Source of the DNA: an uncultured Acidobacteriia bacterium
Lineage (GTDB): Bacteria; Acidobacteriota; Terriglobia; Bryobacterales; Bryobacteraceae
Length of the DNA: 64,000 bases
Assembly: GCA_903929755.1 (NCBI GenBank)
Contig: CAIYVZ010000160.1
Coordinates: 1-64,000 of the forward strand
Direction of reading: 5' to 3'
Part shown: piece after piece, positions 38,419-43,221 of the stretch
How positions within the stretch are numbered: the first letter of the stretch is position 1
Layout: each line of letters begins with the position of its first letter
Made by a program: the position numbers and the translations under genes
Notes under the pieces: model-generated
What the model was told of the DNA's origin: nothing
Databases searched by the model: none
What the model saw: the letters and a program-made list of their open reading frames with translations, nothing else

Positions 38419-39594
38419 ATGCGAATGGCGCGCACAGCTTTGCGAACGGCCCTGATAGTCGCGGTCTTCGCAATCCTCTGGCCGCAGCTGGTGGCCCTGC
38501 CGTTTCTGCGGCAAAATCCCCTCATTCTGGAATCTTCGATCCTGATCTCCAGAAATATGCTGGCGATAGAATCGCTCTGCGCGCTGGTGGCTGCCGTCGC
38601 CGTAATTATCCTCGCCCGCGCCAATCGCCCGTGGCGCAAACTGGGTCTCGCAGTGGTCGCCTGCGTTGTTCTCTCCCGCGTCGATATCTACGAACTGATC
38701 TTCCACCCTCTGCAGCGCCCCGCCTTCATCACGGCATCTGAAGTCAAACTCGACGGCAGGGAGAGGCTTCTCACCATCAACCTGAAAGGCCACATCCGCG
38801 CCTACCCGGTCCGCAGTCTCTCCTACCACCACATCGTCAACGACGTTTTGGAGGGCGTGGCCGTAGCCGCAACTTATTGAACGCTCTGTCACACCGGTCT
38901 GGTGTGGGGACGCGAAGTGGACGGCATGGTTCTCACCTTCCACCTTGCGGGTATTAACAATCAGAACTTCCTGATGCGGGATGACCAGACTGGCTCTTAC
39001 TGGCAGCAGGTCAGCGGCCAGGCCATTTCCGGACCCCTGAAAGGCAAGTCACTAAAGCTGATCCCCGCCGAGGAAGTAACCTTCGCTCTTTATAAGGCGG
39101 AGCAGCCCGCTGGCCAGGTTCTGAAGGGCGTCGAGGAAGACGAGAAGCACTACAGCCCGATCGACTGGGAAAAACAGTTTGAGAAGCTGCCCGTCGTGGT
39201 GGAACACCCCGGTGAGGGCTTCCAATCAAAGGATGTGATGCTCGCGATGAGCGCCTTCGGGCAGGAGCGCGCCTACCTTCTGCGCACCATCCTCACCGAG
39301 AAGCTCATCAAGGATCGAGTCGGCCCGGAGAACGTCATCCTCGTGGCCGGACCGGATAACGAAACCGTCCGGGCCTTCCGCATACCTGCCACGGATTTCT
39401 ACCGCACCAACGAGACAGCTACCTTGCTGATGGACGCGGCCACCGGCAGCAAATGGAACTTCCAGGGCTGCGCCATCGAGGGTTCATCGAAAGGGACTTG
39501 TCTCGAATCGATTCCCCTCACGCAGAACTACTGGTTCGACTGGCGCAGCTACAACCCCGAGGGCACGGTCTACCGGACGCCCGCCGGTCGATAA
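38419..39594 (+). CDS. DUF3179 membrane protein with an in-frame TGA, candidate selenoprotein (UxxC)
   Basis: One frame runs from ATG 38419 to TAA 39592-39594, interrupted only by TGA at 38878-38880. Read through, it gives ~391 residues: three N-terminal helices, then a DUF3179 domain (HIRAYPVRSLSYHHIVNDVL). Then comes VAATY-(TGA)-TLCHTGLVWG. Family members have Cys at the TGA position (typically TYCPLC), so the codon would be Sec154 paired with Cys157 as U-x-x-C. The rest of DUF3179 is intact downstream, in the same frame, with no other stop. A SECIS-like hairpin follows. The alternative is a TGC-to-TGA nonsense mutation that splits the gene. The function of DUF3179 is unknown, but a redox role would fit. 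Confidence 0.8.
38878..38910 (+). promoter_or_regulatory. SECIS-like hairpin directly after the in-frame TGA
   Basis: After TGA 38878-38880 come 9 bases, then CACACC (38890-38895), loop GGTCT (38896-38900) and GGTGTG (38901-38906). The 6-bp stem is perfect, and U38889-G38907 can add a wobble pair. The loop starts 16 bases after the TGA. In E. coli fdhF the SelB-binding hairpin also starts shortly after the UGA and its apical loop is AGGUCU. The shared GGUCU in the loop and the similar distance make a SECIS element likely. Confidence 0.72.
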
Positions 39595-39604
39595 TCTGCG
39601 CCGT

Positions 39605-40024
39605 TTAGTGCGGCAGTCTCGGCTTCAGAACACCATAGAGCCAGGTGCCTGCCAGACCGCTCAAAATTGCCACCAGCATCACGGTCATACCGTTGCCCAC
39701 CAGGGCAAACAGGGGGCCCGGACAGGCTCCCGTCAGGGCCCAGCCCAGTCCGAAGATACTGCCACCCACCGCGTATCGAACGCCCAGGCCCATCTGCCGG
39801 GGCGGCAGGTGGATCGGGTCGCCCGTGAGGGTGGTCAGCTTCAGCCGCCGAATTAATTCCACGCCCGCGCCCGCCACCAGTATCGCGGAGGCGATGATCA
39901 GATACATCCGGAGCGACTGGAACCGAAACATCTCCTGGATGCGGAACCACGACAGCACTTCCGCTTTCGTCAGCACAATTCCGAATAGGGCACCAAGCCC
40001 CAGATAGCGCAAACGGTCCATCAT
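39605..40024 (-). CDS. YeeE/YedE-family membrane protein, C-terminal half
   Basis: A 139-residue membrane protein with about four helices. The conserved half-site is GSIFGLGWALTGACPGPLF, with the family's cysteine. It belongs to the two-gene YeeE/YedE (DUF395/DUF6691) type, whose members transport sulfur compounds or related oxyanions. The ATG pair at 40024/40021 overlaps the stop of the N-half gene (ATGATGA). The frame is open to 40147, but that would run deep into its partner. Works with the upstream gene as one channel. Confidence 0.88.
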   Translation of the reverse strand: MMDRLRYLGLGALFGIVLTKAEVLSWFRIQEMFRFQSLRMYLIIASAILVAGAGVELIRRLKLTTLTGDPIHLPPRQMGLGVRYAVGGSIFGLGWALTGACPGPLFALVGNGMTVMLVAILSGLAGTWLYGVLKPRLPH

Positions 40025-40593
40025 CGGTACACCACCGGAAGCACCAGGAACGTCCCCAGCAGCCCGCCCGCAAAGAAGCCCACCACGGCAAGCAGCGATG
40101 GCAGTTGACGGTTGGCCAGGCCGGAAATCGCATGCCCGGAAGTGCATCCGCCCGCGTAAGCCGTACCGAAGCCAACCAGGAAGCCGCCCACCACCACGGA
40201 CACGAAGCCCTTCAACGTGAACAGCGTCTGCCAGCTGAACACCTCGCGTGGAGCCAGACCCGAGAAATCGTGTATCCCCAGCGCTGCCAGGGACACGCGC
40301 GTTTGCTCGGAAATGCCGATGTCATGTGGCGTGCCTATTTGCGCAGCCAGAAACCCGCCGATTCCGGTCCCCGCCACGAACAGCAGGTTCCAGAGGCCAG
40401 CTTCCTTCCAGTCGTAGCAAAAATGCTCCACGCCGCCCGGCAGCAGCGCCGCGCACATATGCCGCAGATTGCTGGAAACTCCGAATACGCGGTTGCCGGC
40501 CAACAGCAGCACCGGCACGAACAGGCCGATCACCGGACCCGCCACCCACCACGGCCAGGGGCCTGACTTTAACACTTCCAGCATGGCTTCCAT
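40021..40593 (-). CDS. YeeE/YedE-family membrane protein, N-terminal half
   Basis: A 190-residue membrane protein with about five helices. It carries the YeeE/YedE signature TAYAGGCTSGHAISGLANRQ, whose cysteine is essential in thiosulfate-transporting YeeE. It begins MEAMLEVLKSGPWPWWVAG and has a loop GGVEHFCYDWKEAG. Together with the downstream half it forms the full transporter. Homologues carry sulfur compounds; a separate YedE subgroup is tied to selenium metabolism. The neighbouring candidate selenoprotein makes that option interesting but unproven. Confidence 0.88.
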   Translation of the reverse strand: MEAMLEVLKSGPWPWWVAGPVIGLFVPVLLLAGNRVFGVSSNLRHMCAALLPGGVEHFCYDWKEAGLWNLLFVAGTGIGGFLAAQIGTPHDIGISEQTRVSLAALGIHDFSGLAPREVFSWQTLFTLKGFVSVVVGGFLVGFGTAYAGGCTSGHAISGLANRQLPSLLAVVGFFAGGLLGTFLVLPVVYR

Positions 40594-41800: not shown

Positions 41801-42727
41801 ATGAATCGCAGAACCTTCACCACCACCGTCGCACTCGGGGCGGCCTCGCTGCCCCTGTTCGGCAAGAATCGCAAAATCGAGATCGGGCACACGGGTCTTA
41901 CCTGGATTCCCCTGGGTGGCCAAATGGTCCCGCCGCCGCCCGTCAACGCTATCGTTGACCCTCAGTACGTCAAGGCCGCCATCCGGGATATCGCCGGCCT
42001 CGGTTTCCGCGGCATTGAGCTCTTTGGCAATCAGCTTGAGGCCATGGAAGCGGAGGGCGGCATCGGCAAGCACCTGGAAATGCACAAGCTGCCGCTCATC
42101 TCCGCCTATTGCGGTTGCAATCTTACGGATCCCGCGCAGCGCAAAGACTCCATCGCCAAGACCCTCGGCTGGGCGAAACTCGTGAAGCAGTATGGCGGCA
42201 AAGTCATCGTCGTCGGCCCCAACGGCGTGAAGCGCGAAACTTACAAATTCGCCGAACACAAGGCCGATATTGTCGCTACCCTCAACGAACTCGGGCATCA
42301 GCTCCAGGATCTCGGCTTGACCGCCGTCCTCCACCAACACACCGGCACCTGCATCGAATCGAAGGATGAGACCTACGACATCCTGCATTCTGTCGATACC
42401 AAGGTGATGAAGTTCGGCCCCGATATCGGCCAGCTGCAGAAGGGCGGGGTAGACCCCGTTCAGGTTGTGAAGGACTTCCTCCCCATCATTCACCACATGC
42501 ACCTGAAGGACTACAACGGAGGCGATAAATTCCTCGGCTACTGTCCTCTCGGTGACGGTAAAGTGGAACTCGCCAAAATCCTCGACCTCATGGAAGGCCG
42601 CAAACTCGAGGGTCGCGTGATGGTGGAACTCGATTCCCCGCCACCCCAGCCCATCCCCGCCCTTGACACAGCCAAAACCGCCAAAGCCTGGCTCCAGAAA
42701 CAGGGCGTGAAGTTCGGTAAAGCCTAA
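41801..42727 (+). CDS. Tat-exported sugar phosphate isomerase/epimerase-like TIM barrel
   Basis: A 308-residue AP-endonuclease/xylose-isomerase-like protein with an N-terminal Tat-type signal (MNRRTFTTTVALGAASLP). It starts with the GHTGLTWIP strand, then GFRGIELFGNQ, TAVLHQHTGT, KFGPDIGQLQKGG and HHMHLKDYNGG, which carry the metal-binding His, Asp and Glu. Such exported isomerases are common in acidobacteria and planctomycetes. It overlaps the 3' end of the redoxin gene by 4 nt on the opposite strand. Confidence 0.85.
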   Translation: MNRRTFTTTVALGAASLPLFGKNRKIEIGHTGLTWIPLGGQMVPPPPVNAIVDPQYVKAAIRDIAGLGFRGIELFGNQLEAMEAEGGIGKHLEMHKLPLISAYCGCNLTDPAQRKDSIAKTLGWAKLVKQYGGKVIVVGPNGVKRETYKFAEHKADIVATLNELGHQLQDLGLTAVLHQHTGTCIESKDETYDILHSVDTKVMKFGPDIGQLQKGGVDPVQVVKDFLPIIHHMHLKDYNGGDKFLGYCPLGDGKVELAKILDLMEGRKLEGRVMVELDSPPPQPIPALDTAKTAKAWLQKQGVKFGKA

Positions 42728-43221
42728 GGCTTCCGCAGCAGCAGATCCAGTTTGTGCCGGATACTCCCGTCGGGGTCCTGGAACAGCATGTCATCTCCCA
42801 GATGCTTGCTCTCCAGGACCCCGCGCTTATTTACGAACGCCACAATCGGCACAAAGTAACCCTGCTCCAGCGGTTGCGCCAGCCACTGCATCACCGTCGC
42901 CTCGTCGGAGTACCCCAAAGGGTAGCCTTTCACAAATTGGCTTCGAAATTTCTCCAGACCCTGCTTCGCTTCTTTATCAAAAACGGCGGCGATCACCTGC
43001 ACGCCCTTCGGCCCGTACTCCGCCTGGTACATGCTGAGCTGCTTTGCGAAGGCCTGGCAATGCGAGCAGCCCGTATTCAGGAAAGCCACCACCACCACCT
43101 TGCCCCGGTACTGGCTGAGCTTCACATCCGGCCCGCTGGCCATATGAAACGCGAAGTCCGGCGAAGCCTTCTGGGCGAAGGCCAGGCTGGTTGTAAAAAT
43201 TGCCGCGATAAGCCACTTCAT
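42724..43221 (-). CDS. Exported thioredoxin-like redoxin (AhpC/TSA/TlpA type)
   Basis: A 165-residue protein with a signal peptide (MKWLIAAIFTTSLAFAQ) and a thioredoxin fold. The redox motif is FLNTGCSHCQAFAKQL (CxxC), with the cis-proline region in YFVPIVAFVNKRG. It may reduce or repair disulfides in the periplasm. An oxidoreductase partner is not obvious nearby. The stop is shared convergently with the sugar isomerase gene. Confidence 0.85.
   Translation of the reverse strand: MKWLIAAIFTTSLAFAQKASPDFAFHMASGPDVKLSQYRGKVVVVAFLNTGCSHCQAFAKQLSMYQAEYGPKGVQVIAAVFDKEAKQGLEKFRSQFVKGYPLGYSDEATVMQWLAQPLEQGYFVPIVAFVNKRGVLESKHLGDDMLFQDPDGSIRHKLDLLLRKP

Follow-up and report, generated by a model that had tools for sequence, protein, structure and literature searches.

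Selenocysteine (Sec)-containing members of the DUF3179 family (PF11376/pfam11376), with the motif UxxC/T, appear in a 2022 list of prokaryotic selenoprotein families, where they are credited to Zhang & Gladyshev 2007 (PMC9312934), and again in a 2026 list (PMC13188914). As far as the entries of these two lists describe it, the DUF3179 selenoprotein of the 2007 study comes from a deltaproteobacterial symbiont of Olavius algarvensis (PMC9312934, PMC13188914). The bSECIS model specifies an apical loop of 3-9 nt with a G within its first two positions, an upper stem of 4-16 bp, an MFE of -7.5 kcal/mol or lower, and a UGA-to-apical-loop distance of 16-37 nt (PMC13188914).

The sequence analysed here (the window) is a stretch of 64,000 nucleotides from an uncultured Bryobacteraceae bacterium, represented by a draft assembly of 212 contigs, and it contains a complete DUF3179 gene with a putative Sec codon at 38419..39594 of the forward strand. 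Its product belongs to the same Pfam family as the published selenoproteins, and its motif U-T-L-C fits their UxxC/T. The preliminary description of the locus had proposed a new selenoprotein family, a claim that has to be withdrawn since DUF3179 already figures in both the 2022 and the 2026 list (PMC9312934, PMC13188914); the Sec-containing DUF3179 of soil Acidobacteriota is a well-supported new example of a listed family. Compared by list entry, it differs from the published forms in its Acidobacteriota-wide occurrence, its membrane-anchored form of ~390 residues and its single, near-invariant SECIS. Literature searches returned no report of wide Sec DUF3179 use across Acidobacteriota with a near-invariant SECIS, or of a tandem duplication in DUF3179, and full-text searches returned no relevant paper on selenocysteine and Bryobacter, no report of a Rieske-like DUF3179 fold resembling NirD and, beyond the only three papers that name DUF3179, no paper pairing it with Rieske, nor any such pairing within those three; the literature coverage was partial, and this absence of reports is therefore weak evidence.

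Reading frame and selenocysteine machinery

The gene is read in a single frame as 153 amino acids, a TGA codon (38878..38880, +), 237 amino acids and the stop codon TAA (39592-39594, +), which gives 391 residues with Sec at position 154. The preliminary description had the two parts of the gene in one frame, divided only by this TGA, and both the translation and the Pfam profile agree. With the TGA read as a residue, the PF11376 match runs across it and covers profile positions 7-291 of 292 (E = 7e-59), scoring 200 bits against a curated cut-off of 27, and a whole-genome profile search reported the locus as a single match containing one TGA. No NCBIfam model matches the read-through protein. 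The TGA lies in the motif TY-U-TLC (UTLC being residues 154-157) and, in the alignment, takes the place of the first Cys in the TYCxLC motif of Cys homologues, which bears out its earlier assignment to the first position of a CxxC-type motif; TGT at 38887..38889 (+) encodes Cys157, its partner in U-x-x-C. The split frame by itself is weak evidence, because 35 pairs of open reading frames joined by a TGA (each at least 80+80 codons) occur within the window.

The four genes whose presence the preliminary description had left to be checked are all found in the window's genome: selA (500 bits), selB (342.6 bits), selD (360 bits) and the tRNA-Sec gene selC (69.7 bits, anticodon UCA). The selD gene (L099, G000:C46:12221-13144) has an in-frame TGA of its own at the classical Cys/Sec active-site position (KAAG-U-ASKLSP); it is itself a selenoprotein gene and provides independent evidence for Sec use. 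Across the 54 genomes with Sec DUF3179, both selB and tRNA-Sec were detected in 46 and at least one of them in 53, the lone genome with neither being a MAG that is 80% complete.

Conservation of the TGA codon

DUF3179 is present in 74 of 200 genomes of the window's own family, and most full-length matches have exactly one TGA. The codon occupies the identical alignment column in 49 close homologues, so that the same-position TGA sought in the preliminary description does exist, and it recurs in further subtypes; the partner Cys is retained in all 49. Where another residue replaces the TGA in close homologues it is Cys, never Trp, and Ser is found in divergent paralogues only. At the level of the phylum, Sec forms of DUF3179 occur in many acidobacterial families, with named records from Bryobacterales, Terriglobia, Acidobacteriaceae, Candidatus Sulfopaludibacter and Candidatus Sulfotelmatobacter. 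Gene callers can be expected to split or truncate these genes, and a selenoprotein widespread in soil Acidobacteriota is thus probably hidden in annotations.

In a quickly built tree of 105 Sec and 16 Cys sequences (121 in all), two changes between the Sec and Cys states are enough. The Cys sequences comprise a clade of 15 and a single sequence, L174 (also listed as L060), which adjoins the Sec relatives closest to the window's gene and is best read as a Sec-to-Cys reversion. In several of the distant Sec subtypes, U-P-L-A or U-P-L-T stands in the place of U-x-x-C; Sec is therefore retained where the second Cys is absent, and dithiol chemistry is not family-wide.

Sec also stands in the same column in subtypes with the motifs TF-U-VVC (L092, L093), TW-U-x-Y-C (L044, L048) and TW-U-P-L-A/V (L112, L121, L123, L127, L131). 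Two genomes of the window's genus (G187, G199) contain second DUF3179 copies (L088 and L089, respectively) in which Ser takes both positions of the motif (TYSPMS, TYSLLS), and hold a Sec copy as well. One Cys-type gene (L050, G009:C48:14820-15674) has an in-frame TAA and is probably a pseudogene or an assembly error.

The SECIS hairpin

The preliminary description had located a CACACC/GGTGTG stem with the loop GGTCT nine bases past the TGA, and its coordinates are correct. The hairpin, CACACC-GGTCT-GGTGTG, occupies 38890..38906 (+), with the stem at 38890-38895 / 38901-38906, the apical loop GGUCU at 38896-38900 and an energy of -7.7 kcal/mol, and it falls within the codons CAC ACC GGT CTG GTG TGG, which encode the peptide HTGLVW. 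Its loop (5 nt), stem (6 bp), G position and energy fit the bSECIS model, and the UGA-to-loop distance, which is 15 nt when counted as intervening nucleotides and 16 by position difference, is at or just under the lower limit. The SECIS of E. coli fdhF is likewise a short stem-loop right after the UGA and has a GGUCU-type apical loop, whereas its stem sequence differs from that of the window.

As a SECIS, the hairpin is weak evidence in a single sequence and strong evidence across species. Taken from the window by itself, the 54 nt that include the hairpin are no more stably folded than shuffled copies (z = -0.35), and when synonymous codons for HTGLVW are drawn at random, 7.3% of the sequences reach the stability of the window's hairpin. 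Given these figures and the number of TGA-joined frames in the window, the earlier statement that such a combination is hard to obtain by chance was too strong; the TGA and the hairpin gain significance because homology extends to both sides of the TGA and because both are conserved across species.

Synonymous variation in the hairpin codons (+3 to +8) is strongly reduced, with a relative synonymous entropy of 0.155 vs 0.884 at 90 other conserved codons. The 18-nt core CACACCGGTCTGGTGTGG is identical in most of the 67 Sec sequences with the peptide HTG[LIV]VW, and occurs in 62 Sec sequences in total. Substitutions in the stem are rare and often preserve base pairing: an ACG...CTC change turns a C-G pair into G-C with pairing kept in L085, L087, L230, L231 and L238 (some genomes are counted twice among these five), and L136 replaces C-G with T-A, again keeping the stem paired. 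The covariation score is 0.247 vs 0.162 in shuffles, with none of 500 shuffles scoring as high (31 distinct sequences; the shuffles ignore kinship), and slid registers score worse than the register of the hairpin. The hairpin is not kept in Cys homologues that encode this peptide, among them L060 of the window's genus; the mean energy is -7.5 kcal/mol for Sec vs -2.4 kcal/mol for Cys sequences (n = 67 vs 12; p = 6.5e-14, a value that ignores kinship). Codons past the hairpin vary freely, so a conserved lower stem is unsupported. A near-invariant SECIS over many families offers a clean natural data set on SelB recognition.

The conservation of synonymous sites also extends outside the hairpin. 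TAT at codon -1 (38875-38877) is found in 49 of 49 sequences and ACG at codon +1 (38881-38883) is likewise synonymously frozen, with more variation at codons +2 and +3; an effect of UGA context on the frozen flanks is possible. Two Sec homologues (L241, L246) read CAC ACG GGT CTG GTC TGG, with two stem pairs broken, and some distant Sec subtypes have different hairpins, or a weak fold or none at this spot.

Decoding of the TGA codon

Three features expected of a bacterial selenoprotein are found together in this gene and its genome: a UGA at a Cys position, selA-selD in the genome and a conserved, covarying stem-loop. Judging from these sequence comparisons, we put at about 95% the probability that the gene encodes a genuine selenoprotein, decoded through SelB and the SECIS, with Sec inserted at TGA 38878-38880. 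The preliminary description had arrived at the same reading of the TGA and its adjacent hairpin, with which the Sec genes, the same-column TGA and the conservation of the hairpin agree. SelB loaded with Sec-tRNA(UCA) would bind the CACACC-GGUCU-GGUGUG hairpin, whose loop begins 15 nt past the UGA, and Sec would then be placed at residue 154 to yield the motif U-T-L-C.

The selenoprotein reading is preferred to a nonsense mutation or a sequencing error because of the Sec machinery, the conserved TGA, the frozen and compensating hairpin, and the loss of the hairpin in Cys homologues. Were the TGA a true stop and the gene broken, one would expect what is indeed seen in the window, a frame containing a TGA among many joined in the same manner by chance, but not the recurrence of the same TGA in dozens of species from many acidobacterial families, nor a protein conserved on both sides of it with no other stop; conservation across species rules out a random nonsense mutation, and we regard a pseudogene as exceedingly unlikely. 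The draft state of the assembly would leave room for a misread TGC or TGT, the first of which the preliminary description had itself named as a danger. The chance of this is negligible, as independent assemblies, among them the near-complete genome of Bryobacterales bacterium F-183 (AP025252.1), have TGA at the same codon, and independent genomes of the window's genus (L069, L079) share it too.

Read-through or reassignment of the UGA without Sec, by a near-cognate tRNA or under a code in which UGA means Trp or Cys, could make use of the frozen TAT and ACG as a read-through context. It is very improbable in view of the complete Sec pathway in the genome, the pattern of replacement by Cys and never by Trp in close homologues (Ser being confined to divergent paralogues), and a hairpin that is conserved in TGA genes and decayed in Cys genes.

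Protein architecture and predicted fold

AlphaFold2 gives a confident model of the read-through protein as a single unit (mean pLDDT 93.7, pTM 0.90). Three hydrophobic helices stand at the N-terminus of the model, which also has two beta-rich parts resembling each other. The N-terminal membrane part (38419..38700, +) has three predicted transmembrane helices, corresponding to helices 2-25, 47-65 and 71-85 of the model and to peaks of hydropathy; three such peaks are seen in 39 of 49 homologues and two in 9 of 49. It is followed by the first DUF3179 repeat (38710..39126, +), to which the U-x-x-C motif is confined, and the second (39202..39591, +), which has a Cys pair of its own, GC-x9-C; 46 of the 49 close Sec homologues have this pair. 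The two halves are homologous (profile comparison: 99.7%, E = 1.6e-25). Positive charges in front of the first helix and in the stretch linking the second to the third, together with the hydropathy profile, suggest that the repeats probably face the periplasm, anchored by the three helices. The protein is likely to act as a membrane-anchored, periplasm-facing selenol/thiol oxidoreductase; its activity would, by a modest balance of the evidence, be selenol/thiol redox chemistry carried out by Sec154-Cys157, with a possible relay to GC-x9-C in the second repeat.

Structural comparison of the model points to a Rieske-like fold. Foldseek searches with the full model and with the first repeat gave high-probability matches of Rieske type, notably NirD and Rieske ferredoxins; those of the first repeat were all of this type, with probabilities up to 1.00, TM scores of 0.51-0.59 depending on the target and E values of 0.013-0.7, while for the full model E = 0.0043 was attained only on a low-probability match. 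A profile sequence search of the PDB gave no match, and hhalign found no significant similarity to Rieske proteins encoded by the window's genome. We consider a Rieske-like fold likely but unproven, the structural match being suggestive and not significant. The predicted fold of the first repeat resembles the NirD structures (PDB 3c0d, 4aiv, 2jo6), and NirD has a Rieske fold without the cluster. Unlike Rieske proteins, DUF3179 is a tandem duplicate with no profile similarity to them, and the cluster ligands C-x-H ... C-x-x-H are absent from alignments A2 and A3, which speaks against a Rieske iron-sulphur protein.

The resemblance to Rieske proteins, along with residues near-invariant across the family (H137, C154 and C157 among them), might also be taken to mean that DUF3179 binds a metal or an Fe-S cluster and that U-x-x-C is a ligand in place of a redox dithiol. 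This is unlikely: the classical ligands are missing, the best fold matches include the cluster-free NirD, profile comparison with Rieske proteins is not significant, and many Sec subtypes do without a second Cys. At less than even odds stands the tentative view of DUF3179 as a Rieske-like fold, duplicated in tandem and free of a cluster, whose metal-cluster loop would have turned into the U-x-x-C site, forming a periplasmic selenoenzyme widespread in soil Acidobacteriota. We know of no Rieske-like scaffold that hosts Sec chemistry. The fold and the tandem duplication together provide the first testable structural idea for DUF3179.

Gene neighbourhood

Clustering of the gene neighbourhoods of 122 loci revealed no conserved neighbour pointing to a function, and a mechanical antisense reading frame over the DUF3179 gene itself accounts for the largest cluster (113 loci). 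In the window, two short YeeE/Sulf_transp genes (39605-40593, -) adjoin the Sec DUF3179 gene in convergent orientation; a link to selenium through these genes was considered and rejected, as the arrangement is not conserved among other loci. A gene for a Redoxin/AhpC-TSA domain protein (42724-43221, -) lies ~3 kb downstream of the Sec DUF3179 gene.
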